26,355 nt of DNA from a virus. Numbering within the stretch: the first letter of the stretch is position 1; the number at the start of each line of letters is the position of its first letter. The notes beneath the pieces are model-generated. The model did no database searches, was not told the DNA's origin, and saw only the letters and a list, made by a program, of their open reading frames with translations. Made by a program: the position numbers and the translations under genes. This document shows positions 11,671 through 25,623 of this stretch, one piece after another. The DNA is taken from positions 1-26,355 of the IMG/VR virus record IMGVR_UViG_3300027621_000030, one strand, 5' to 3'.

Positions 11671-14600
11671 TGCCAACAACCAGAACATTCAATCGTTCAT
11701 TTGCTGGTGGCGAGTTGTCGCCAGAAATGTTTGGTCGTATTGATGATCAAAAGTTTCAGACTGGTGCTGCAAAGATGCGGAATTTTATTGCGTTGCCGCA
11801 AGGTCCTGCCGTAAACCGACCAGGAACAAAGTTTGTACGCGCAGTCAAAGACAGCACCAAGAAGACTCGACTCATTCCATTTACATACAGCACCACACAA
11901 ACAATGGTTCTTGAGTTTGGCGAGGGCTACATTCGATTTCACACGCAGGGCGAAACACTGCTTGTAGGAACTCCAAGCGCATTCAGCGCAACAAAGACAA
12001 TTACGGCTGTTAATACTGCCACAGATACCGTGACAAGCAACGCGCACGGTTATGCAAACGCAACGCCAATTCAAATTGCAGCCACTACAACAATTCCAGT
12101 GGGCTTGTTGGCTCTTACAACTTATTATGTTGTTGGGGCAACCGCAAACACATTTCAATTCTCTTTGACTGTTGGTGGAGCGGCAATTGACATTACAAGT
12201 GTTGGTGCTGGAACAATTACCACAAATCAAGTTTATTCTTTGGGTGATCTTGTAAGTTACGGCGGTTCAAATTATTACTGCATTCTTACATCGACAAACA
12301 ACTTGCCGACCAATGTCACATATTGGTTTTTGATTTCAAGCCCCGCATACGAAATTCCAAGTCCATACTTGGAAGCGGACTTGTTTGACATTCACCATGT
12401 TCAGTCGTCAGATGTGTTGACATTGGTTCATCCGAATTATCCTCCACGCGAACTGAGAAGACTTGGCGCAACGCAGTGGACCTTAACTCCTATTTCTTTT
12501 GTTCCAGCCGTGACAAGTCCAACTGGCGTTGCTGTAACTGCGTCCCGCGGCGAAGCATTTAACATTACTGCAATTACGCAAGCAAACCCTGGCGTGTTGA
12601 CGCTTTCGTCTGCTCATCAATTTGTTATTGGAGACTCAGTGTATGTCAGCGGCGTTCTTGGAATGACTCAACTTACTGATGGGTTTTATGTTATAAACAG
12701 TATTCCAGCAAGTGCAATATCTCTTAAAAACTACACGACTGGCGTTCCTGTAAATACGACCGCATACACCGCATACACAAGTGGCGGCACAGTTGAATAT
12801 GGAACAAAGATATTTGACATAGTAAATTATTATGTTGTTACTGCTATTGGTGCAAATGGAGTTGACGAAAGTCTTGCATCTGCAAGCGTAAATGTAACAA
12901 ACAATTTGTATGTCAATGGAGCGTTCAACACAATTACTTGGTCTGCGGTTACTAGCGCTATTCGATACAACATCTACAAAATTCAATCTGGATTGTATGG
13001 ATACATTGGTCAGACACAGGCTTTGTCATTTACTGACGGCAACATTGCACCTGACATGGGTATTACAACTCCTATTGTTGAAACTGTTTTTAATAGTGCC
13101 AACAATTACCCTGGAGCCGTTTCGTATTTTGAACAACGCAGAGTGTTTGCTGGAACAACCTACGCTCCACAGCAATTGTGGATGACACGGTCAGGCACTG
13201 AAAGCGATATGTCTTATCGTTTGCCTGTAAAGGATGACGACAGAATTTCGTTTAAGGTTGCAGCGCGTGAAGCCAATACCATTCGACACATTATTCCGCT
13301 GCAACAATTGATGCTGTTGACCAGCGCAGCCGAGTGGCGTGTGTCTCCAGTGAACAGCGATGCCATTACGCCGACTACCATTTCAGTTCGACCACAGTCT
13401 TACATTGGCGCAAACAATGTGCAGCCATCAATTATCAATAACAGCATGGTCTATTGCGCGGCGCGTGGTGGTCACATCCGCGAACTTGGATATTCATGGC
13501 AGTCCAATGGATACATCACAGGGGATTTGTCGCTTCGAGCAGCGCACCTGTTTGACAATTATGAGATTTCTGACATGTGTTACAGCAAGTCTCCGCATCC
13601 ACTTATTTGGTTCATCTCATCGACAGGACTGTTGCTTGGATTGACCTATGTTCCTGAGCAACAAATTGGTGCTTGGCATCAGCATGACACGGACGGCACA
13701 TTTGAAAGTTGTGCAAGTGTTGCTGAAGGAGCAGAAGACCATGTGTATGTCGTTGTGAAGCGAACCGTTAATGGCAACTCAGTTCGATATGTTGAGCGGA
13801 TGTCATCAAATGCATTTGATTCTCTCGATGATTGTTTCTTCGTGGATTCAGGTTTGACATATGACGGGAACAACACGACCGCAACAACTGTGACCGTGTC
13901 AGGTGGAACTCTTTGGGGACCAACCGAAGTATTGACAATAACGGCATCGACTCCAATCTTTGCGTATCCAGCGCTGACAGACATTGGGGACGCGTTCGTA
14001 TTTACGGCAACTGACGGAACACAATACAGACTGACAATCGAAGGATGCTCATCAACGACCGTTGTTCAGGCTCGATCTGACAAGGTTCTAGCGGTGGCGT
14101 TCCGCAATGTGCCTATCTCAAATGGCGCATTTGCAAGAAATTCTGTTGGAGGTTTGTCACACTTGGAAGGCAAGACTGTTTCTATATTGGCTGACGGAGC
14201 CGTCATGCCAAGCAAAGTTGTTGTTGGCGGATCAGTTTCAATTGATCGAGCAGCAGTCAAAATACATGTTGGCTTGCAATACTTCAGCGACTTGCAGACT
14301 TTGCCACTAGCAATAAACATTGAAGCCTTTGGTCAGGGTCGAGTTAAAAACATCAACAAGGCTTGGGTTCGAGTGTTCCAATCAAGCGGTCTGTTTGTTG
14401 GACCTACCGCCGACAAGTTGACGGAAGCCAAGATGAGAACTGACGAACCATATGGATCACCGCCATCCTTGCGTAGCGACGAGATTAGCGTCAACATCAC
14501 ACCGACATGGGCGCAAGGCGGTCAGATCTACATTCGTCAGGCTGATCCACTTCCATTGACGATTGTCGGAGTAACCATTGAAGCGGTGGTAGGAGCATAA
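11670..14600 (+). CDS. Tail tubular protein B / nozzle protein with inserted domains
   Basis: 976 residues from ATG 11670 (TAATG overlap with the previous gene); a GTG 18 bases earlier is less likely. The core is the T7 gp12-type nozzle: 'FNRSFAGGELSPEMFGRID', 'GPAVNRPGTKFVRAVKDSTK', and later AVSYFEQRRVFAGTTYAPQQ and 'MTRSGTESDM', then RHIIPLQQLMLLTSAAEW. It is longer than T7 gp12 (about 794) because of apparent insertions: FCCH-like barrels near residues 110-183 and 298-376, a short carbohydrate-binding-like piece (188-221, YSLGDLVSYGGSNYYC...YW), and a fibronectin-III-like domain (about 380-465, YYVVTAIGANGVDES). Role: the distal tail tube; the inserts probably point outward and may touch host glycans or fibres. 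Confidence 0.85.
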   Translation: MPTTRTFNRSFAGGELSPEMFGRIDDQKFQTGAAKMRNFIALPQGPAVNRPGTKFVRAVKDSTKKTRLIPFTYSTTQTMVLEFGEGYIRFHTQGETLLVGTPSAFSATKTITAVNTATDTVTSNAHGYANATPIQIAATTTIPVGLLALTTYYVVGATANTFQFSLTVGGAAIDITSVGAGTITTNQVYSLGDLVSYGGSNYYCILTSTNNLPTNVTYWFLISSPAYEIPSPYLEADLFDIHHVQSSDVLTLVHPNYPPRELRRLGATQWTLTPISFVPAVTSPTGVAVTASRGEAFNITAITQANPGVLTLSSAHQFVIGDSVYVSGVLGMTQLTDGFYVINSIPASAISLKNYTTGVPVNTTAYTAYTSGGTVEYGTKIFDIVNYYVVTAIGANGVDESLASASVNVTNNLYVNGAFNTITWSAVTSAIRYNIYKIQSGLYGYIGQTQALSFTDGNIAPDMGITTPIVETVFNSANNYPGAVSYFEQRRVFAGTTYAPQQLWMTRSGTESDMSYRLPVKDDDRISFKVAAREANTIRHIIPLQQLMLLTSAAEWRVSPVNSDAITPTTISVRPQSYIGANNVQPSIINNSMVYCAARGGHIRELGYSWQSNGYITGDLSLRAAHLFDNYEISDMCYSKSPHPLIWFISSTGLLLGLTYVPEQQIGAWHQHDTDGTFESCASVAEGAEDHVYVVVKRTVNGNSVRYVERMSSNAFDSLDDCFFVDSGLTYDGNNTTATTVTVSGGTLWGPTEVLTITASTPIFAYPALTDIGDAFVFTATDGTQYRLTIEGCSSTTVVQARSDKVLAVAFRNVPISNGAFARNSVGGLSHLEGKTVSILADGAVMPSKVVVGGSVSIDRAAVKIHVGLQYFSDLQTLPLAINIEAFGQGRVKNINKAWVRVFQSSGLFVGPTADKLTEAKMRTDEPYGSPPSLRSDEISVNITPTWAQGGQIYIRQADPLPLTIVGVTIEAVVGA

Positions 14601-14602
14601 AC

Positions 14603-15346
14603 ATGTCATCATTTGCGTATGCAAATCCATATACTCAAATTAATCCTGAACTTTCCACCATACTGCAACCTTCAGGAGGTTATCAAGGTCCACCAAGCGG
14701 ATTAGTGCAGTTCGACCAAAGTGGCGCACAAATTAGTGGCGGTGGTATGGATGCCGCTGGAGCGTTTCAGGTGGCTGGCGGAATCATGGCGATCTTTGGC
14801 GCGGCAAACAGCGCCATCGGGACTTTCTACCAAGCCCAAAGCGCACAGAATCAACTGAAGGTTCAGGCTCAGAACGAACGGTTCCAATCGCAGATGTCTG
14901 CCATCAACGCTCAGAGCGCCGAGTTTAGCGCCCAGCAGAGCCTCTTGTCTGGCGAGAAGCAGATTGGGCAGTACACAATGAGGGCTGGTCAACAGAAGTC
15001 GTCAGCGGTCGCCTCAATGGCTGCAAGAGGCATCCAAGGTGGAGTCGGATCTGCCAAGGAAGTCATTGGCAGTATGGACATCGTCAAGGAAATCGACAGG
15101 CTGACGATGTCTGCAAGCAATGTCCGTCAGGCTGAGGCACTTAGAAATCAAGCGATGAACTACCGCAACCAGTCCATTATGTCTGGGCTGTCAGCCGACA
15201 ACCTCAACACCAGCGCTGGGACAATTTACCCAGGGCTTGGCGTAGCAACCAGCCTGATCGGAAGCGCAGCAGACATTGGTGGAAACTGGGCAAGAGACAA
15301 CAGGCTTGAACAGTACCTTCGCGCACAATCAACCAAGAGATTCTAA
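14603..15346 (+). CDS. Internal virion (ejection) protein, T7 gp14-type
   Basis: 247 residues; AGGAG about 9 bases upstream of ATG 14603. A Gly-rich N-terminus is followed by a membrane-like segment at residues 53-75 (GAFQVAGGIMAIFGAANSAI), then a long Gln/Ala/Ser-rich helical region with little charge (QAQSAQNQLKVQAQNERFQ, NAQSAEFSAQQSLLSGEKQI), then 'AARGIQGGVGSAKEVIGSMD'. This is the usual form of the smallest of the three ejection proteins, which is known in T7 to form an outer-membrane channel for DNA entry. Its order before the two larger ejection genes agrees. Base composition looks richer in G+C than its neighbours. Confidence 0.8.
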   Translation: MSSFAYANPYTQINPELSTILQPSGGYQGPPSGLVQFDQSGAQISGGGMDAAGAFQVAGGIMAIFGAANSAIGTFYQAQSAQNQLKVQAQNERFQSQMSAINAQSAEFSAQQSLLSGEKQIGQYTMRAGQQKSSAVASMAARGIQGGVGSAKEVIGSMDIVKEIDRLTMSASNVRQAEALRNQAMNYRNQSIMSGLSADNLNTSAGTIYPGLGVATSLIGSAADIGGNWARDNRLEQYLRAQSTKRF

Positions 15347-17476
15347 ATGCCAACAGTACCAACATCATTCGTCCCTCAAGTTTCTCCACAGGGTGATGGA
15401 GGAATGGTTCCACTTCAGGCTCCTCCAGTTGAGGGTGTACGCAACGCATTGCCAGAGCAACAGATTCGATTTGGCGAGGCAATGAGAAGCGCTGGAAATG
15501 TTTCCTTTCGGATTGGTCAGCAGTTGCAGGATTCGATTGACGAGGCGGCGGCAAAGGCTGCCGATGTGGAACTATCACAGTTCTCAAATAACATTCTTCG
15601 TGGCAAGAATGGATATCTCGGTCTTCAGGGTAAAGACGCGGACACAAGATACGAAGAGACAAACAGCGCAATCCTTTCTGCTGCAAATGGCATTCAGTCA
15701 AGACTAAAAAACAAGACTCAGGTTGAACTGTTTAATCAATCTGCGTCTCGAAACATTGTTCAGTTTCAGGGTCAGATGGGCGCACATTGGAACAATGAAG
15801 TTCCTAAATATTTGGCGATGGAATCGAATGCCCGTGCAATTCAATCGAGCCAAGACGCAATAAATTCGTATTCATCCTTTTCAAGCGCATATCTAGAAAG
15901 TATTGCAAAGGCTGAAGCGGAAACTGCAACGGGATTGTCTTATCTTGGAATCTATAAGGGATCTGCTCAATATGATCAATCAATGAAAAAGGTGCGTTCT
16001 GTAATTACGGCTGGAGTTGTCAGCAGGTTAATGGATGAAAATTCTTATCAAGATGGTTTGAATTATTTAGAAGAGCAAAACAAATCGAAGTTGATTGACG
16101 AGCCGACATATCAATCCTTGCGTTCTGGATTGATTGCAAACAGAGATCGGCAAATGCGTATTGAATTAACTTATGCCATTAGGAATGGCTATCCACTTAC
16201 AACACCTTCTGGAACTGGAAACTATTCGACTCCAGTTGTTGGAGGAGAGATTGTAAGTTTTAGCGAAAATGAATATTCCACCAAAGACGGAAAAAAGGTT
16301 TTATCAGGATTGACATTAGAAGTCGGTTCTGGGACTCAAATTAGATCCCCTGGCAGATCTACAGTAGAAGATTACAAAGAGGGTAGTAGCACAGTTACTC
16401 TTAAAAATGAAGATGGATCTCAATTTCACTTCCAAGGAATTGTCCCCTTAAACATAAAGAATGGAGACAAAATTGCCCGTAATCAAATTATTGGTGTGGC
16501 AATGGATGATAAAGAAAATCCTGGAAAAGCAAATCTTACATATTCATTTACAAAAGATGGAAAATTAAAAGATCCGCAAAATGCAAATGTTCTTGTAGGT
16601 AATGTAGATGTGCCAAAAACAAATACACTTGAAGATCAACTTGCTCGTGCAAAGCAAATTCCAAACTTAGAAATGAGAAACCAAGTTGAATCGTCACTTA
16701 GGCAGGAGTATGCACAAGATGTTAATGCGTTTAACAAAGCATACAACGATCTTAAATTTCAAATTTACAACATGTATGCGGCTGAAATTGACATTCCTGA
16801 AGAAATGTTTGCAGCCCTTAGTCCATCAGATCGAAAAGAGTTTGATGCTAAAAAACTTGAGTCGTCCTCTTTAGATGCAAAACTTGCAATCGCTGTTGCT
16901 GGAGGTGCAAATAAAGAATTGCTAATTCAATATGGAACGCAACTGACAAAGCAAGATCGTTTGGCTTATTTGAATCAAATGAACACCGCAGGGTCATCAC
17001 CAGCATCTTTTGATCAAGACATGTTTAGCATGCTGCTTCGTCAAAATAATTTTGCTGTGTATGCGGATCCAAAAAAAGATACAGACAAATTAAAAACATT
17101 GCAATTGCGTGACGATGTTAATACGAGGATTCAAAAGCAAAAGCAATCTACTGGAAAAGATCCTTCTGATGAAGAAAAGCAAAAGATTATGATGCGTGTT
17201 ATTGCAGATCAATATTATATTGACAAATCTTTTGCAATAGATCCACAAGTCCCAACTGCATCACTAACAAAAGAAGAAAAGGAAAAGGCATACAAATATG
17301 TAATGGGAACTAAAATGTCTTTTGACGATTACCAAAAATTGCCGAATATTCTTGTTGGCGGAAAAACAATTACCAAAGAAAAGTATGAAGAAATATCTAT
17401 GATTCTTGCTGAACAAGGCGCAAAAAATACAGAAGAAAATGTCTTAAAGATGCTAAAAGTAGAAGGATCTAAATGA
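15347..17476 (+). CDS. Internal virion (ejection) protein, T7 gp15-type, with degenerate M23-like domain
   Basis: 709 residues, ATG 15347 directly after the previous stop. Residues about 35-260 are helical, with the family pattern AMRSAGNVSFRIGQQLQDSI, AADVELSQFSNNILRGKNGY and 'QGKDADTRYEETNSAILSAA'. Residues about 296-410 look like a beta-barrel of the M23/LytM peptidase or 'duplicated hybrid motif' type (NGDKIARNQIIGVAM, ...SFTKDGKLKDP), but the expected H-L-H is N396-L397-T398 and the tyrosine-histidine site reads F-H-F-Q, so zinc and catalysis are probably lost. The C-terminal third is helical and charged. Role by position: periplasmic part of the ejection conduit. Its last 4 bases overlap the giant gene (ATGA). 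Confidence 0.75.
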   Translation: MPTVPTSFVPQVSPQGDGGMVPLQAPPVEGVRNALPEQQIRFGEAMRSAGNVSFRIGQQLQDSIDEAAAKAADVELSQFSNNILRGKNGYLGLQGKDADTRYEETNSAILSAANGIQSRLKNKTQVELFNQSASRNIVQFQGQMGAHWNNEVPKYLAMESNARAIQSSQDAINSYSSFSSAYLESIAKAEAETATGLSYLGIYKGSAQYDQSMKKVRSVITAGVVSRLMDENSYQDGLNYLEEQNKSKLIDEPTYQSLRSGLIANRDRQMRIELTYAIRNGYPLTTPSGTGNYSTPVVGGEIVSFSENEYSTKDGKKVLSGLTLEVGSGTQIRSPGRSTVEDYKEGSSTVTLKNEDGSQFHFQGIVPLNIKNGDKIARNQIIGVAMDDKENPGKANLTYSFTKDGKLKDPQNANVLVGNVDVPKTNTLEDQLARAKQIPNLEMRNQVESSLRQEYAQDVNAFNKAYNDLKFQIYNMYAAEIDIPEEMFAALSPSDRKEFDAKKLESSSLDAKLAIAVAGGANKELLIQYGTQLTKQDRLAYLNQMNTAGSSPASFDQDMFSMLLRQNNFAVYADPKKDTDKLKTLQLRDDVNTRIQKQKQSTGKDPSDEEKQKIMMRVIADQYYIDKSFAIDPQVPTASLTKEEKEKAYKYVMGTKMSFDDYQKLPNILVGGKTITKEKYEEISMILAEQGAKNTEENVLKMLKVEGSK

Positions 17477-20400
17477 TTAATCAGCCAGAATTAGAAGCCA
17501 TTGATTCGTCAATGACTTCTCCACCAAAAGATGTCTTGAGTTACTCCGTGTCTCAAAACCCAGTTGCAAGTGAACTTGATGGAGATTCAATTGACAGTTC
17601 AATACAAAATGCGCTAACAGAAACCGCGTCAAATCAAAGCAAGAAGACACCAATTTCAATTCCAGTTCAAGAGTTAACTCCAATTGAAAAGGCTGTAAAT
17701 GAATACGCCAAAATAAATAACGCAAGAAACAAGACGGCTTTAAATCAATCCCTTGTTTCTGCTTCTGCCAAAGATCCAGATACGGCTGCAAAGTCTCAGG
17801 CTCTTGCTACAAGTTTGAATGTTTCTACTGGGGTTGTTGACTTTGACATTGAACTTGCAAAGAGACAAAGGCTTTTGAGACAAGCGGAGGCAATGAAACT
17901 TGCCGAAAAATATCCGTCACTAGCAAGAAGTTTTTTAAATCAAGACTTTGCCGCAATTGCACATGATGACATTGACAATCTTGCAAAGACTTCAGACATA
18001 TCAAGAAGGCTTATAGCAACAGAGAAATCGCCATCTGATTCGCTTCCATTAGAATTTGATCCAATAAGGACGGCAAATTATTATGCAACCAATACATTGG
18101 AAGGATTTAAATCTGATTGGGAACGAGGTTACAAGTCTGGCGACATAACTGACAGATCATCAAAGTTAGGATATTCAGCATTCACAGCGCCAGGTTCTGA
18201 ATCAAGAGATGCATATATTTTTCAGGCTGAAAATCTAAAAAGCAAAACAGAAGAATATCTTGGAACTTGGACTGAAAGTCTTGCAGAACTTGCGGGGCAA
18301 ATGGCACCAATGACCGTAGAAGCCGCAGCAACTGGCGTTGTTGCTTCGGGCGGAGCCGCGCTTGTTGCTTCTATTTTCCCTCCTGCTGAACTCCCTCTTG
18401 TCCCTGGCGCTTTTGCGGCTGGATTTGCTGGGTCAATGAGTTATCAATCTTATGAAATTGAAACTGGCGCTTCTTATCTTGACCTAAGAAAAGGAGATGA
18501 AGATTACGAGCCAATGTCGCATGAAGAGGCTGCGGCTATAGCGCCAACCGTTGGGTTAATAAATGCTGTTTTAGAAACTGCTTCTAACTTTTTCTTTTTT
18601 ATTCCAGGAGCCAAACTTGCAAATTATGCATTAAAAAAGACAGTGAAAGAAACGGTGTCTAAAAGCCTCAGAAAGGCAACCGTTGGGAAACTCGCAAGGT
18701 CTGCTGCAATCCGTGTTTTAAAAACTGGATCACTTGAAACAGTAACGGAAGTCCTACAAACAATTGTGCCAAAGATAGTGCGTGAAGCCAATGTTCCTGA
18801 AGGTCGTGTGTCTGCATTTGATACTGAAGAAGGCAGAAAAAGATTTGCAGATGAAATTGCTGTAACTATTGAAAAAACTTTTAAAGGTGCTTTTTTACTT
18901 GGTCTTATTCCTGGCGGTGCTAAATTTATTCACGAAAGATCAATTCTTAATGAATCAATTCTGCAACAAAATGAAATTACAAATTTTATTAATATCGCAA
19001 AAGAATCAAAAGTAAATAAACGAAGCAAGATTACATACGCCTCTTATCTTGCTCAACTACTTTCTGGCGAATCTATACACATAGGTGTAGAGCAATTTGA
19101 ACAGATAAGAAAAAAGAGCGAAGTAAGCCTTGAGGAACTTGAAAAGATAATCCCTGGAATTACCAAACAGGTCGCAGATGCAAAGGCTTCTAGCAGTGAT
19201 ATTGTAATTCCAACATCTTTGTATTTGTCAGAACTTATTGATACTGAATTCGGCGTTTTGATTCGCAACGATATCCGCGCAAATGCAAAAGGAAAAAGCA
19301 TTAATGACATTGCTGAAGATGAAATCAGTAAAAAAGAGTTTCAAAAAGAATTAAAGCAAGAAATCGAAGACTTCAAGAAAACAAATAAGGACTGGGCAGA
19401 AAGTGCTGGGAACATTGAAGAAGAGGTGTTTGCAAAAATTAAGGCTGCTGGTAATTACACAGAAGAAGAAGCCCGTATGCTTGCCCAATGGCATCGAGAT
19501 ACTGCGGTAGTTCTTGCGTCAAGATTTGGAATGACACCAGAAGAATTTAACGCAAAGTTTGGGCTGTCAATTGAAAGTGCATATACGCCAGAGCAACAGG
19601 CTCCAGCGCAAGGATCGTTTGAGCAAGCATCACGCGCAGACCTAGGGCTTGGACAACAGGCTGTTCCTGCTCCTGACAGCGGAACATTCGACGCAAACAA
19701 CCCACCAGTTTCAAGCGAGGCAATCTTTGCGCTGATGGATGCAGATGGAAAAATCTACTACGACATCAATGCAACGATGCACGGCGATCTTGTCGAAACA
19801 TTTCCTGACATAACGGATACGGTCATTGACGGCGGATTCATTGTCAATGGCAAGTACATGATGGGCAAATCTGATGGTGGCTATTCAGCATTCGAGGGTG
19901 AACAAAAGCAAATTGACGCAGTTCGTAATTTTACGGAACAGGCGAACACTACAACCGATCCGAACATGTTAAGGCAGGAGTTAATAGAAGTAAATCACAA
20001 ACGAGAAAAAACAACTGGTCGATATGTTGGTGCGCCAGATTGGATTGGTGGCGACACCAAGAAATTAAATGTATTAAGAAAGAAACTTAAAGCACTTACG
20101 CTTGAAGGCGAACGCGGTCGAATGTGGTACGAAAATTCAAGCAAAGCAATTCTTGAAATTACTGGTGGTGACATTGCAGAAGCAGAAAAAATAGTTTCTC
20201 TTATTGCAATTTATTCCCCGAACGCAACAGTTCCCGCAAACACCTCAATGGCTTTAACGGCGTACTATCAATGGAAGGCTGGTCACAAAATCAAAGCAGG
20301 ATTTTCTGCCTCCGACAAGAAAGCAGAAGAACTTCTTCGAAACAATAAACCGTGGAGTGGAATTAAAACCAACTCGTTTTATCAAAACTTGATGGTTGAA

Positions 20401-23400
20401 ATTGATCCTTCACGACTTGATACTGGCGTTGCCACAATGGATATGTGGATGGCTATTGCGTTTGATTATGGCGACAAGGCATTAGATCAAGGACCTAAGT
20501 ACAAATTTAGCGAACGAGAAATGCAACGCCTTGCATCCGAACTTGGTTGGAAACCACATCAAGTCCAGGCTGCTATTTGGACAGCAATGAAAGGTCGAGT
20601 AGATGCAATACGAGGCGAACTAAAAAAGCAAGAATTAAAACTTGGAATTGGAAGACTTGTAACCAAAACAGATCCAATAACAGGCAAGGAAAGCGAAATA
20701 TACGAAGTCATTCCAGATAAAAAATATGAACATTTTAAACTTGCACACAAGATTGCAATGGAATACACGCTGACTCCAGAAGATATTAACGCAAGCAAGT
20801 ATGACTTTAGCGATGCAATACGCGAACGCACAGTTCAAATGTCATGGGAGGCTACGCCAAGCACATCGACGGGAAGATCATTGCCTGGAATTCATGGCGC
20901 TTCACTTAAACAAAAGTTTGAATATTTACAAGCCATTCAAGATGTTCTTACTGAAAACGGTCGAGATGTTATTGCTGATCTTGCAGGTCTTCCGCAAGGC
21001 ACAACTGCCAATGGTTTCAGCGCATGGCTTGGCGACATTGGCGCTGGCGCTCAAACATTTGTTCCAGTTCCATCAAGTGGGTTTGGGAAAACTAGAGCAA
21101 TAAAACCATCCGCAGTTGAGATTCTTGATTTGGCATCTGCCATTCGTGGCTATGTGCTAGAGCAAGATGCAATTGTGTATCACACTCCTGTGTGGGATGA
21201 CGCAAAAATGCGTCAAAATGGATTGCAATTATCTGCTTCTCGACCACTCACAAAAGAAGAAATGCAGACTATGTATTCTGCAATACATCAAAAGTTTGGC
21301 ACATGGGATCTTGCTCCTGGCTATCGTCCAGACGGCGCAAGAATTATTAACTTTACATCCATTCCAAATTCTGAATTTCAGAAGGGAATGATTGAAATTA
21401 TTGAGGCGTTGCCAAAATTGTTTGGTGGCGGTACAATTGAAATCGAAACTTTTAGATCAGACGGAAACTACATATCTAATGATTGGACAAAGGACACAAA
21501 TGGCGAAGGTTATCTTAAAAGAATCAAATCCAAACAGCCCGATATACAACAGCGGGTCGCAGATCTTCGTTCCCGTGTCGAAGCCGTCAACCGAAAGTTT
21601 GAAGCCAAGTATGGATGGGACAAACCAGCCTCAGGACTCCTTGAACAGTCCGCTCAAAACAAACCAGCAAGAGGATTCTTCAATCCAAAGCAACTGAAGG
21701 CAATGCTTGGTAGTAAGTCTGACATTACTACATTCTTTCACGAACTAGCACATTACTACTTGACCGTATATTCTAGAGTTGCTTCTGATCCACAATCTCC
21801 ATCTCAAATCAGAGAGGATATGGACATAATACTTTCTTGGTTTGGAATTGCTGGTGAGACTCCAGAGCAAAGACTTGCGACTTGGAACGCAATGACTTTG
21901 GAAGAACAAAGACCGCATCACGAAGCGTTTGCATACAACAAAGAAATATATGTTTCAGAAGGCAAATCACCAAGCATTGAAATGCAGGGTGTGTTTGAAC
22001 GATTCAGTCAATTCGTCAAGAGAATCTACATTTCAATTCGCGACGACCTGAACGCCATATACAAGCAGGAATTCGGGACAGATCTTCCAATGATGACTGG
22101 AGATATTCGCAGGGTCATGGACAGGATGATTGCAACCGACGAGCAAATTCGTTCTGCCGAAGAGCGAAGAAATATGGAGGACACTTTCAGGGATCAAGAA
22201 TTATCTGGAATGGATGATGCTCAATGGGCTTCATACCAGCAGATGAGAGCGGAAGCCACACAGAAATCAGTGTCGGAATTGAACGAGCAAAGTCTTGCTG
22301 CGACAACATGGGCTTCAAGACTGAAGGCAAATAAGGTCAAGGAAATACAAGCCGAGCAAGAAGAACTCCGCAGTGAAATTCGCAAGCAGGTCAAGAAGGA
22401 AGTTGAGTCTCGAAATGTGTATCGAGCAATCAAGTTTCTCAAGTATGGAATTTTGCAGACGGCTGGAGGCGAAGAAGTTGAATTTACTGGTTCAAATAAA
22501 TTGAACACGAATGCAGTCAAACTTATGGTTCCAAAGGAAAACATGGATAAGTTTGGATCTGGCAAGAATGGAATGGTTGCCCTTGATGGATACCACCCAG
22601 ACATTGTTTCAGAAAGATTCAACTATTCATCTGGCGACGAACTTATCCTTGCAATTCTTGACGCAAAGCCAATGGATGAGGTCATTGATGGAATCACTGA
22701 AGACCGTATGGAAATCGAAAACGGGGAACTCAATTCTCCACAGGCTATCGAAGCGGCGGCTGACAAGGCAGTCCATAACGAGGCAAGAGTTAAACTCGTT
22801 GCCGTCGAACTGCGGTGGCTGAGCAAAGCAACCCAGCCAGTTCGTGCAATGATTGCAGCGGCAAAGTCTGTCGCAAAGCAGATGCTTGAGACCAAGAGGC
22901 TTCGAGACATCAAGCCAGGAGATTACGCATCCGCAGCGGCAAGGGCTGCCAAAGAATCGCAGACTGCATATTTTGCCACCCAAAGCGCAGAGACGGCAGC
23001 CAAGACCGCTTACACGCGTCACTACAACAAGATGATCGCTGAGGGGGCTGAAGAGGCAAAAGCCGTTGAGATGGCAACCAAGGTCTCTGATGAGGCACTG
23101 GCAAAGGCAGAGTCTCGGTCAGAGGCACACAAGAAGAAGTACGGCAAGATGAAGCCGAGCGAGGTTGCAGCACAGGCAAAGCGTTCCCAACTCCTACAGG
23201 AGCAGTTGGCGCTAGAGGCGAACGATGCACTTGACCAAGTTAAGAAGTCGCTCAAGTACTTGAGGAATGTCCTCAGCGACAAGAATGTGCAGAAGATTGG
23301 CGCAGACAATTCAGATCAGATTGCTCTTCTTTTAGAACGATTTGAGTTGAAGAACATTTCATTGAAAGAAATGGATAAGCGGACTTCCCTTGCAGATTGG

Positions 23401-25623
23401 ATTGCAGGTCAATTGGAACTGGGTCTTGAAGTTGACATCTCTAAAGAACTCGTTGATCAAGCAAATAAAATCTCTTATCGAAATATGACGCTAAGTCAAT
23501 TTAATGATTTGGTCGATGCGGTCAAGACAATCGAGTACATGGGCAAGAATGAAAACGCAATCCTTACTGCCGCAAAGAAGGCTGCGTTTAAAGAGACAAG
23601 AGACGAGATAGTTAAAAGCATTGTTGAAAACGCTGGCGACAGAAAGGCAAGTACACGAACAGCCAAATCAGGAACAATTGACGCAGTTATTTATCCGATA
23701 AAAAGATTTATTGCTGCCCAATTTAAGGCTGCATCTGTTGTAAGAATTTTGGATGGAGGGAAAGATGATGGACCTCTATGGAATTATTTGATTCGATCTG
23801 CAAACAAAAGCGGCGACAAAGAAACAACTATGAGGGCAACTGCTACGGAAGCAGTATCAAAAATCCTTGCGCCATTTTTTAAATCTGGAAGAATGGGTGG
23901 AAAAGGAAAGATGTTTAACTCTGTAAATGAAAGCCTGAACAGAGAAGAAAAACTTGTCATTGCATTAAATATGGGTAATGAAGGAAATATCCAAAGAATG
24001 CTTGATGGATATGGATGGACTATTGAACAGGTCATTCCGATTTTGGAATCAATGACAGCGGAAGAATTGAACGCTGTGCAAGAAATTTGGGATCACTTTG
24101 AAACATACAAGAATGAAATTTCAGCCATGTCAAGAAAGTTTTTTGGCAAGGATCTTGACTTTGTTGAGCCAACTCCAATTCAAATAAAGTCTGCGAGTGG
24201 TGAGGTTGTAAGTTTGAGGGGTGGCTATTACCCAGCAAAATATGATCCAATTGCAAGTTCTAAGGCACAAAAATTAGAAGAGGCAGAAATTGCGAAACAA
24301 CCACTAAAAGCAGCGTATGTCAGCGCAACAACAAGTCGCGGATACTCAAAGCAACGAGCAGCAAAAGTAGTTGGTCAACCACTTATTAGAAATCTTTCTG
24401 CGCTTTACTCTGGACTCAATGAAGTTATTCACGATCTGTCGTGGCGTGAATGGACAATTGATGCCAATAAACTTATGCGTGACAATGCATTCGACAAAGA
24501 AATCAGGAATAGATATGGTTCGATTTTTACGGATCAATTGAAATCGTGGATTCAAGATGTTGCCGCTGGTGACAAAGCGATGGACACAGGTATGGATATC
24601 CCATTAAATTTCTTGCGACAAGGAATTAGTTCGGCTGGACTTGGATTTAATCTTCAAAGTGCAGTACTTCAGATTACGGGGTTTAATCAAAGTATTGTTC
24701 GAGTTGGTCCAAAATATATTGGTTATGGGATTATGCAGGTAATGAAACGCGGAACAGGTGCTTTTCGAGAAGTCAACGAACTTTCTGATTTTATGGCAAA
24801 CAGGTCGAGGACTCAATTTCGAGAGTTAAATGAACTCAGGAATCGAATTCAGGGTCAAAGCGCAGTAATGAAAAAAGTAAGAATGGGAACATACTTTTTG
24901 ATGATGAAAATGCAGAGAAATGTAGATGTTCCAACATGGATTGGTGCCTACACAAAGCAACTTGAAATAAATCCAGATGAACAACTAGCAATAGATATTG
25001 CAGATCAAACTGTTATTGATACGCAGGGTTCTGGTATGATTAAAGACCTTTCTGGTGTTGAACGAGGTGGCGCTGGAGCGAAATTATTTACGGTGTTTTA
25101 TGGATACATGAACACCGTGTACAACATGGCTGCTGTTGAAACAATGACAGAAAATAAAAGGGGCAAATTGGCGGCTAAGTATGTAATGCTTTTTGTTGTC
25201 CCAGTTGTTTTGGGTTATGCAATTAAGAGACTTCTCAGACCAGGCAAAGATGACGACGATGAATTTGATTTAGAGCAAATAGCAAAAGATCTTTCAATTC
25301 AGCAGATTGAATATCTGATGGGAACAATTGTTGTCGCAAGAGAATTCTCGCAAATTTCAAAAGCAATAATTGATCCTTCAGCGCCAAGTATGGAATACAG
25401 CGGACCTGCTGGACTTAGAACAATTGGAGATACATACACGGCTGCAACGCAGTTTGGTCAAGGCGAATTTGATAGTGCATTTAGAAAAAGCGCAATCAAT
25501 CTTATTGGAGATATAAGTGGTCTTCCATCGGCTCAGGTCAACAAAACAATTGATGGGATCGAAGCATTGATGGAAGACGAAACAACTGACATACGAGCGC
25601 CATTGTTTGGTGTCAGAAAATGA
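17473..25623 (+). CDS. Giant ejected polyvalent protein (gp16-position) with HELAH metallopeptidase motif
   Basis: 2,716 residues, about twice T7 gp16. ATG 17473 overlaps the previous stop and follows AGAAGGA. Visible parts: a helical N-terminus (DPDTAAKSQALATSL, typical of ejection proteins); hydrophobic stretches near 277-330 and 357-383; a region 884-1040 (RMWYENSSKAILEITGG, DMWMAIAFDYGD, KPHQVQAAIW) seen in other giant phage proteins; H1423-E-L-A-H1427 after TTFF, with E1491 in HEAFAYNKEIYVSEG as a possible third zinc ligand; coiled coil and EVESRNVYRAIKFL (about 1600-1650); SERFNYSSGDELILAILDA (about 1711); and a C-terminal domain with GLGFNLQSAVLQITGFNQ and a membrane segment at 2570-2584. 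From memory these are hallmarks of large polyvalent proteins that enter the cell with the DNA. No lysozyme or transglycosylase motif was recognised. Confidence 0.8.
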   Translation: MINQPELEAIDSSMTSPPKDVLSYSVSQNPVASELDGDSIDSSIQNALTETASNQSKKTPISIPVQELTPIEKAVNEYAKINNARNKTALNQSLVSASAKDPDTAAKSQALATSLNVSTGVVDFDIELAKRQRLLRQAEAMKLAEKYPSLARSFLNQDFAAIAHDDIDNLAKTSDISRRLIATEKSPSDSLPLEFDPIRTANYYATNTLEGFKSDWERGYKSGDITDRSSKLGYSAFTAPGSESRDAYIFQAENLKSKTEEYLGTWTESLAELAGQMAPMTVEAAATGVVASGGAALVASIFPPAELPLVPGAFAAGFAGSMSYQSYEIETGASYLDLRKGDEDYEPMSHEEAAAIAPTVGLINAVLETASNFFFFIPGAKLANYALKKTVKETVSKSLRKATVGKLARSAAIRVLKTGSLETVTEVLQTIVPKIVREANVPEGRVSAFDTEEGRKRFADEIAVTIEKTFKGAFLLGLIPGGAKFIHERSILNESILQQNEITNFINIAKESKVNKRSKITYASYLAQLLSGESIHIGVEQFEQIRKKSEVSLEELEKIIPGITKQVADAKASSSDIVIPTSLYLSELIDTEFGVLIRNDIRANAKGKSINDIAEDEISKKEFQKELKQEIEDFKKTNKDWAESAGNIEEEVFAKIKAAGNYTEEEARMLAQWHRDTAVVLASRFGMTPEEFNAKFGLSIESAYTPEQQAPAQGSFEQASRADLGLGQQAVPAPDSGTFDANNPPVSSEAIFALMDADGKIYYDINATMHGDLVETFPDITDTVIDGGFIVNGKYMMGKSDGGYSAFEGEQKQIDAVRNFTEQANTTTDPNMLRQELIEVNHKREKTTGRYVGAPDWIGGDTKKLNVLRKKLKALTLEGERGRMWYENSSKAILEITGGDIAEAEKIVSLIAIYSPNATVPANTSMALTAYYQWKAGHKIKAGFSASDKKAEELLRNNKPWSGIKTNSFYQNLMVEIDPSRLDTGVATMDMWMAIAFDYGDKALDQGPKYKFSEREMQRLASELGWKPHQVQAAIWTAMKGRVDAIRGELKKQELKLGIGRLVTKTDPITGKESEIYEVIPDKKYEHFKLAHKIAMEYTLTPEDINASKYDFSDAIRERTVQMSWEATPSTSTGRSLPGIHGASLKQKFEYLQAIQDVLTENGRDVIADLAGLPQGTTANGFSAWLGDIGAGAQTFVPVPSSGFGKTRAIKPSAVEILDLASAIRGYVLEQDAIVYHTPVWDDAKMRQNGLQLSASRPLTKEEMQTMYSAIHQKFGTWDLAPGYRPDGARIINFTSIPNSEFQKGMIEIIEALPKLFGGGTIEIETFRSDGNYISNDWTKDTNGEGYLKRIKSKQPDIQQRVADLRSRVEAVNRKFEAKYGWDKPASGLLEQSAQNKPARGFFNPKQLKAMLGSKSDITTFFHELAHYYLTVYSRVASDPQSPSQIREDMDIILSWFGIAGETPEQRLATWNAMTLEEQRPHHEAFAYNKEIYVSEGKSPSIEMQGVFERFSQFVKRIYISIRDDLNAIYKQEFGTDLPMMTGDIRRVMDRMIATDEQIRSAEERRNMEDTFRDQELSGMDDAQWASYQQMRAEATQKSVSELNEQSLAATTWASRLKANKVKEIQAEQEELRSEIRKQVKKEVESRNVYRAIKFLKYGILQTAGGEEVEFTGSNKLNTNAVKLMVPKENMDKFGSGKNGMVALDGYHPDIVSERFNYSSGDELILAILDAKPMDEVIDGITEDRMEIENGELNSPQAIEAAADKAVHNEARVKLVAVELRWLSKATQPVRAMIAAAKSVAKQMLETKRLRDIKPGDYASAAARAAKESQTAYFATQSAETAAKTAYTRHYNKMIAEGAEEAKAVEMATKVSDEALAKAESRSEAHKKKYGKMKPSEVAAQAKRSQLLQEQLALEANDALDQVKKSLKYLRNVLSDKNVQKIGADNSDQIALLLERFELKNISLKEMDKRTSLADWIAGQLELGLEVDISKELVDQANKISYRNMTLSQFNDLVDAVKTIEYMGKNENAILTAAKKAAFKETRDEIVKSIVENAGDRKASTRTAKSGTIDAVIYPIKRFIAAQFKAASVVRILDGGKDDGPLWNYLIRSANKSGDKETTMRATATEAVSKILAPFFKSGRMGGKGKMFNSVNESLNREEKLVIALNMGNEGNIQRMLDGYGWTIEQVIPILESMTAEELNAVQEIWDHFETYKNEISAMSRKFFGKDLDFVEPTPIQIKSASGEVVSLRGGYYPAKYDPIASSKAQKLEEAEIAKQPLKAAYVSATTSRGYSKQRAAKVVGQPLIRNLSALYSGLNEVIHDLSWREWTIDANKLMRDNAFDKEIRNRYGSIFTDQLKSWIQDVAAGDKAMDTGMDIPLNFLRQGISSAGLGFNLQSAVLQITGFNQSIVRVGPKYIGYGIMQVMKRGTGAFREVNELSDFMANRSRTQFRELNELRNRIQGQSAVMKKVRMGTYFLMMKMQRNVDVPTWIGAYTKQLEINPDEQLAIDIADQTVIDTQGSGMIKDLSGVERGGAGAKLFTVFYGYMNTVYNMAAVETMTENKRGKLAAKYVMLFVVPVVLGYAIKRLLRPGKDDDDEFDLEQIAKDLSIQQIEYLMGTIVVAREFSQISKAIIDPSAPSMEYSGPAGLRTIGDTYTAATQFGQGEFDSAFRKSAINLIGDISGLPSAQVNKTIDGIEALMEDETTDIRAPLFGVRK

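Follow-up and report, generated by a model that had tools for sequence, protein, structure and literature searches.

Within a 26,355-nucleotide stretch of viral DNA (IMG/VR virus record IMGVR_UViG_3300027621_000030, positions 1 to 26,355; hereafter the window), a single gene at 17473..25623 encodes a protein of 2,716 amino acids (aa), here called the giant. The reading favoured, with a probability of about 60%, is that the giant is an ejected carrier of effector domains: its two ends are fixed, a swappable slot between them holds a glycosylase-like cargo, and a zincin-like metallopeptidase domain would act on the giant itself. The open reading frame (ORF) starts with ATG and comprises 2,716 codons plus a stop, exactly as a first-pass annotation of the window had it. 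All features described below lie on the + strand.

The zincin-like domain occupies residues 1391-1580 (21643..22212). Its HELAH motif is found where the first-pass annotation placed it, at residues 1423-1427 (21739..21753) and directly after TTFF (in full, ITTFF); it is the sole HExxH in the giant, shuffled versions of which contain 0.022 on average. With an alignment of seven sequences as the profile, viral contigs were found to encode 514 zincin relatives, and the best 80 of these 514 were taken. For the zincin alignment (A3), 96 matches were reduced to 56 non-redundant ones, with L001-L005 left out, and 57 sequences were aligned. The proposed zinc-site residues are conserved in these homologues: H1423, E1424, H1427, E1484 and E1491 are invariant in 57/57, and many of the sequences are only 27-55% identical to that of the window. 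The earlier proposal of a gluzincin-type site with E1491 stands in part. The site is of zincin type and E1491 is present and invariant, but E1491 is not accepted as the sole third ligand because E1484 (H-E-x-F-A) is equally invariant, which leaves both the gluzincin class and the ligand role of E1491 as candidates. The two candidate ligands span 21922..21945 and lie on one predicted helix (91-111 of the model).

The AlphaFold2 model of the domain is confident, with a mean predicted local distance difference test (pLDDT) score of 86.4 and values of ~95-98 through the core. It has two short strands, a helix (33-52) bearing the HExxH, and the later helix bearing E1484 and E1491. Foldseek, run with this model against the PDB, had no hit that reached E 0.001. 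VIA-align re-aligns Foldseek's own candidates only, and 623 of 638 chains were compared; rows 1-6 of the 47 listed are the catalytic domain of anthrax lethal factor, a known zincin, at Z 4.9-5.4, which is below the caution line of the tool. These rows align ~100 residues at a root-mean-square deviation of 4.5-5.7 and up to 18% identity, and stand above unrelated rows; ArdC comes lower in the list (Z 2.6). Because the nearest solved matches are zincins at low Z, it is accepted that residues 1391-1580 hold a zincin-type site, as modelled, and the fold match is called weak. Thus, of the zincin fold that had been predicted around HELAH, the confident domain and the identity of its best solved neighbours agree, but a Z of ~5 and the Foldseek result do not make a firm match.

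It is conceivable, if rather unlikely, that the domain has ceased to be a protease and plays a structural part between the cargo and the C-terminal block, as a hinge or lock that a metal may stabilise. Precedent comes from phage N4, for whose virion RNA polymerase (vRNAP), gp50, the available text reports that the HExxH domain C1 contacts the polymerase, that the C-terminal part represses it, and that the full-length recombinant protein shows no evidence of degradation (PMC12633501). Against this, the invariance of HExxH and two glutamates in 57/57 sequences is more than a structural role usually needs. The ratio of nonsynonymous to synonymous substitution rates (dN/dS) in the domain, 0.15-0.29 in four close comparisons, shows constraint and does not separate a protease from a structural role.

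The cargo of the slot in this phage centres on a DUF7178 domain at residues 855-1056 (20035..20640), with a predicted helix-hairpin-helix DNA glycosylase fold of the Ogg2 type. DUF7178 is filed as a family of unknown function. Its Pfam model, PF23802, matches residues 867-1042 (E 2.5e-13; 50.8 bits against a curated cut-off of 27). A GxK...TxDxW pattern had raised the suspicion of a helix-hairpin-helix glycosylase before structure prediction. The AlphaFold2 model of residues 845-1389 has a pLDDT of 94.8 and a predicted template modelling score of 0.90, and VIA-align compared 997 of 1000 Foldseek candidate chains with it. The best four of the 997 are Ogg2 8-oxoguanine DNA glycosylases (Z 10.1-10.6, 161-175 residues aligned), followed further down by archaeal AGOG (Z 7.9) and mammalian OGG1 (up to Z 6.7); the predicted model thus has the HhH-GPD fold, with Ogg2 in its top rows.

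In Ogg2, a lysine and an aspartate carry the glycosylase chemistry. When an Ogg2 alignment was built from genome loci, hhalign placed Lys965 (20365..20367) and Asp990 (20440..20442) on this pair, Lys965 falling on the lysine of the Ogg2 GxxYKEASHF stretch, and they are the candidate catalytic residues. Both are invariant in 48/48 module copies (alignment A4, made from 51 non-redundant copies minus L162, L165, L166 and L174, which gave split or long matches, with 8 partial copies skipped) and in 11/11 sequences of the stand-alone homologue alignment (A6); Asp990 is also invariant in 88/88 iterated-profile relatives. Many DUF7178-like domains fall in a divergent subfamily with a GPKIGNGFF...LTMDRW signature, where the spacing from Lys to Asp is 19 residues in 19/23 rows and 18 in two, the pattern being absent in two more. 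The spacing in the Ogg2 consensus equals the 19 residues of this subfamily.

Several results weigh against a glycosylase. At an E threshold of 0.001, Foldseek found nothing in the PDB for the cassette model. When the module profile was aligned directly with Ogg2, the score was marginal (P 0.019 and 0.036), and one of 120 shuffles reached the first of these values; the GPKIGNGFF subfamily had no match to Ogg2 at all in a direct comparison. The Ogg-HhH profile PF22175 matched nowhere in the record of the window at E 0.001, although the control matched in three genomes, and Pfam and NCBIfam scans of 48 module members returned DUF7178 as the only confident match (48/48). The domain is accordingly classed as Ogg2-like and not as a member of PF22175, as judged from these profiles.

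A firmer link between DUF7178 and Ogg2 runs through stand-alone phage proteins, by profile comparison. A tblastn search of phage records with the whole 540-residue cassette found none at 1e-3; with the 202-residue domain, at E up to 10, it returned 44 phage records, most of them weak singly. Nine stand-alone proteins from these records are DUF7178 members (E 1e-22 to 2e-74), and the identity between the window and the stand-alone homologues is no more than 20-26%. Aligned with one another, with the window row left out, they match the window module with 99.1% probability, and match Ogg2 at P 1.1e-4 with a score of 35.8, the best of 60 column shuffles scoring 16.9. At the tblastn match, 7 of the 44 records (six phages) have a function named by the depositor, and all are of glycosylase type or endonuclease: glycosylase in Triumph, Dorin and Francesca, N-glycosylase/DNA lyase in prophiGD54-2, N-glycosylase in Kumao (two accessions), and endonuclease in prophiT49-2.

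The fold comparison, the Lys965/Asp990 pair, the profile alignment and the annotations of stand-alone homologues point to a cargo that looks like an Ogg2-like DNA N-glycosylase/lyase, with its activity predicted. The sequence link to active glycosylases is distant, and middling structural scores can arise from helical folds; DUF7178 might instead be a DNA-binding helix-hairpin-helix domain that lacks glycosylase chemistry and holds or pulls the incoming DNA. This is unlikely, since the Lys and Asp of Ogg2 chemistry are invariant across the 48 module copies and 10 stand-alone homologues at only 20-26% identity.

The organisation of the giant around this cargo is seen by comparing relatives. The zincin is the opening of a C-terminal block whose length is close to constant. 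Across 61 distinct and complete ORFs that carry the zincin, the HExxH lies a median of 1,276 aa from the C-terminus (range 727-1,401), and the part before HExxH measures 660 to 2,976 aa. In the giant, the block continues after the zincin domain through residues 1581-2716 (22213..25620), which match PHROG 9880. The cassette just ahead of the zincin, residues 827-1391 (19950..21645), is exchanged outright between close relatives at common linker breakpoints. By blastn, four contigs (L007, L009, L010 and L011) match the window on both flanks and have unrelated sequence in place of residues 827-1391. The DNA identity of the flanks in close relatives is 84-96% piece by piece, and 92-93% in the C-terminal block. 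The left breakpoint (residue 826) is at the identical base in all four; the right breakpoint (residue 1392) is at the identical base in L007, L008, L009 and L010, whereas L011 has it five bases further upstream. L008 begins inside the cassette and matches the window from the right breakpoint on, and L014 has a further version of the cassette. Disorder in the model immediately ahead of the zincin (pLDDT 42) places the right breakpoint in a linker. Further upstream, a first cargo junction at about residue 719 (19618..19628) is marked by blastn breakpoints and by extra sequence in L010 and L011.

Replaced cassettes carry the ADP-ribosyltransferase domain ART-PolyVal in L009, L010 and L014 (Pfam), and PBECR1 occupies the slot before the zincin in Bordetella phage BPP-1. 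A survey of cargo in 33 N-terminal parts of relatives found ART-PolyVal in 18, DUF7178 in three, PBECR1 and DUF3293 in two each, InPase and RadC in one each, and others. Just before the zincin, L010 and L014 have the SPNT...TxDxW pattern of DUF7178 in cassettes that lack BLAST similarity to that of the window; the slot may therefore keep divergent members of the DUF7178 fold.

A mechanism can be proposed on this basis. The giant would be a carrier of effector domains that sits in the phage head and leaves it together with the DNA. Its N-terminus (an LPD22 domain and a hydrophobic stretch) and its zincin-led C-terminal block would be the fixed machinery, and recombination in linkers would exchange the contents of the slot module by module. 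Here, the slot would hold an Ogg2-like DNA N-glycosylase/lyase with a partner domain; in sister phages, it would hold an ADP-ribosyltransferase, a nuclease or other domains. After ejection, the cargo may act on DNA in the host, either to mend the incoming genome or to attack modified or host DNA, and the zincin would most likely work on the giant itself at the junction of cargo and core. The fixed ends, the swapped slot, the conserved zincin site and the DUF7178 fold with its catalytic pair come out of the computation, and injection, glycosylase activity and all proteolysis are inferences. Two points count against this scheme: the presence of the giant in the virion is a prediction from gene order, and self-processing is weakened because recombinant N4 vRNAP was reported intact. 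Self-processing by the zincin is given slightly less than an even chance.

Self-processing or control of the cargo is nonetheless favoured over an attack on host proteins because the zincin is fixed at the junction of cargo and core. It is improbable that the zincin is the effector itself, cutting a host protein (defence, envelope or RNA polymerase) after ejection, with the cargo slot incidental. Cleavage of host targets is listed as a possibility in the consulted part of Iyer 2017 (PMC5512222), the site residues are all invariant in the 57 sequences, and the nearest solved neighbours include a toxin effector protease. However, an effector that faces varied hosts would be expected to vary or be swapped, and the zincin is constant and tied to a block of fixed length beside domains that are swapped. 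The swap itself might be an assembly artefact of chimeric contigs, given that the close relatives that show it are all metagenome contigs, but this is very improbable: the window version of the cassette is identical in a 43-kb contig (L006), alternative versions recur (one in L007 and L009, another in L008, L010 and L011), the reading frame is preserved across both junctions, and named isolates show the same layout of fixed block and variable slot.

The rest of the cassette, residues ~1107-1380 (20791..21612), is a partner domain with ferredoxin-like elements. It (model residues 263-496) matches RND porter domains at Z up to 8.4, and a phage S-adenosylmethionine (SAM) lyase at Z 7.5 with a Foldseek probability of 0.82. 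No function is claimed for this domain because ferredoxin-like elements are common; a SAM-lyase-like function, if true, would mean antirestriction. Giants of other phages match the window solely over residues ~834-1384, and profile scans recovered 110 relatives of the module in viral contigs and 10 in genome contigs, a distribution that marks the cassette, on sequence grounds, as a mobile module. Among zincin-bearing ORFs that were sampled through the zincin and not through DUF7178, 25/79 contain a DUF7178-like domain by iterated profile. In seven contigs (L154, L156, L157, L159, L169, L171 and L172), DUF7178 and the partner domain occur in proteins of 822-1,059 aa in which a zincin was not detected, and the module is therefore able to work outside the giant.

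The genes around the giant (terminase, portal, head protease, GP7 capsid protein and tail proteins) are those expected of a short-tailed phage of the BPP-1 kind. After the tail proteins come a gp14-like internal virion protein (14603..15346; PHROG 418 at E 8e-11, T7_gp14 at E 1.6e-4, which is below the cut-off of that model), a 709-aa gp15-like protein (15347..17476) and the giant. This order agrees with the gp16 position given to the giant by the first-pass annotation; by position, the giant is probably the third ejection protein, which would be injected with the DNA. Its fixed N-terminal part contains LPD22 at residues 92-182 (17746..18018; PF18834, E 7.5e-14), which Pfam also finds in 31 of the 33 N-terminal parts scanned. 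Hydrophobic segments lie at residues 284-302 (18322..18378), with a 19-residue Kyte-Doolittle window of 1.73 and possible membrane insertion, and at residues 2566-2584 (25168..25224), also by Kyte-Doolittle hydropathy. As in phage-type polyvalent proteins, several domains (LPD22, DUF7178 and the zincin-type domain) are combined in one chain.

A PADLOC check of a defence-gene reading found nothing. Among solved structures, no convincing match came from sequence searches with the whole giant or with the profiles of the zincin and of the module; one chain reached E 8.7e-10 in the profile search and was discarded, as no single stretch of it passed by itself. Two side observations concern the relatives. 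In the gene of a 982-aa tail protein, positions 11995-12251 are unmatched in L007, L010 and L014 despite matching flanks, and L011 matches throughout; this stretch looks like another exchanged domain. In L011:5914-15839, either a frameshift or an assembly error splits the giant, close to its residue 2730, into a pair of open frames that overlap.

How the cell wall is opened was raised as a question by the absence of a visible lytic transglycosylase in the giant. The absence holds: neither Pfam nor PHROG finds a wall-lytic domain in the giant, the N-terminal lytic transglycosylase of T7 gp16 has no match in it, and SLT is absent from the 43-kb record with the same sequence. The wider search for wall-lytic domains instead leads to the neighbouring gene. 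The gp15-like protein has a degenerate M23 domain at residues ~320-410 (16304-16576), in which the His/Asp/His motif that we take to be catalytic is lost in the window and near relatives and kept in L003 (an antisense row, L228, was ignored in this alignment). It would thus be a pseudo-enzyme in the position of cell-wall opening. Where a wall enzyme is recognised in relatives, it is in the gp15-like protein, as SLT in BPP-1, AF and SR18 and as M23 in L003; across 31 viral records, M23 occurs in 10 and SLT in two. Movement of the wall-lytic domain between gp15 and gp16 is described for T7-type ejection proteins in the part of PMC8954989 consulted.

Zincins in injected polyvalent phage proteins, with the proposal of self-cleavage, have already been described (Iyer 2017, PMC5512222, as far as the accessible text goes). 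The open PMC papers searched yielded nothing on a glycosylase-like cargo, on the identity of DUF7178, on allelic exchange of cassettes or on the constant length from zincin to end: the term DUF7178 does not appear in open PMC papers, and a search there for glycosylases in polyvalent or injected phage proteins found only an HhH-GPD gene in Streptomyces phage Sf3. On the reading given here, DUF7178 becomes a predicted DNA glycosylase family with two settings, stand-alone phage genes and the cargo of giant ejection-type proteins. A base-excision enzyme that enters with the phage DNA would act before phage gene expression, either in genome repair or in an attack on modified DNA. The allelic cassettes separate machinery from payload in an ejection protein, and make it possible to test whether, as has long been asked, the payload is released by the zincin.

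Among known systems, the polyvalent proteins of Iyer 2017 resemble the giant in being multidomain, in lying beside virion genes, and in combining an LPD domain with a metallopeptidase that has HExxH and a downstream Glu; their effector domains include ART and PBECR, which relatives of the giant carry too. The giant differs from them in its glycosylase-like cargo, the word glycosylase being absent from the accessible part of PMC5512222; the zincin-led block of fixed length and the allelic exchange of cassettes are additions of the present analysis. The same source cites P1 DdrB as an example of processing, and N4 vRNAP as a protein that is packaged without it. Bbp10 of BPP-1 (Rauchvirus) has the same gene order and is 43% identical over residues 1399-2716, but it is 2,052 aa long and has its PBECR1 nuclease, with no DUF7178, before the zincin; the gp15-like neighbour in BPP-1 has an SLT transglycosylase, unlike the degenerate M23 of the window. 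Virion mass spectrometry of BPP-1 covers two major bands, and Bbp10 and Bbp11 are unmentioned in the portion of PMC3863775 available. Ogg2 (PF22175) and stand-alone phage DUF7178 proteins share with the module the predicted fold, the Lys/Asp pair and a C-terminal W motif; unlike them, the module forms one part of a giant ejection-type protein, where a partner domain accompanies it. T7 gp16 shares the third ejection protein position, and differs in size and domains and in having a transglycosylase.

The comparison with N4 reaches furthest. N4 gp50 consists of a lipid-binding N-terminus, the RNA polymerase, the HExxH domain C1 and C2, a helical block for which no homologues are known, according to the accessible text of PMC12633501. 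The giant likewise has a putative N-terminal membrane part, a cargo enzyme in the middle, an HExxH domain and a long, mostly helical block; the cargo of N4 gp50 is an RNA polymerase, and homology of the C-terminal sequences is only hinted at. None of the vRNAP Pfam domains is found in the giant, although the same models match N4 gp50. In N4 gp50 (L232), the HExxH is 1,272 residues from the C-terminus. The schitovirus polymerases compared are L232 and L266-L342; the median distance is 1,278 in 73/77 loci, against 1,276 in the family of the window; the motif pattern is missing from the other 4/77, and in an earlier set of 22 loci, four lacked the pattern and one was ended by the locus end. In HMMER, the C-terminal block scored no better against N4 gp50 than shuffled controls did. 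In one direction, hhalign gave a collinear alignment located ~860-880 residues downstream of the motif, with a score of 29.9 against 29.1 for the best of 80 shuffles, 8/80 of which were likewise collinear; in the other direction, nothing against the N4-like block was in register.

The shared gene order, the medians of 1,276 and 1,278 and the weak collinear profile alignment are listed in support of one ejection chassis common to BPP-1-like podoviruses and N4-like schitoviruses, a tentative proposal that is somewhat more likely to be wrong than right. The chassis would begin with an N-terminus that binds membranes, carry an exchangeable enzyme as cargo and end in a helical block of ~1,275 residues led by the zincin. 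If this is true, the virion RNA polymerase of N4 would be just one of many cargoes, a DNA N-glycosylase/lyase injected with the genome would be the cargo in this phage, and what has long been an odd case would become one instance of a general delivery system.

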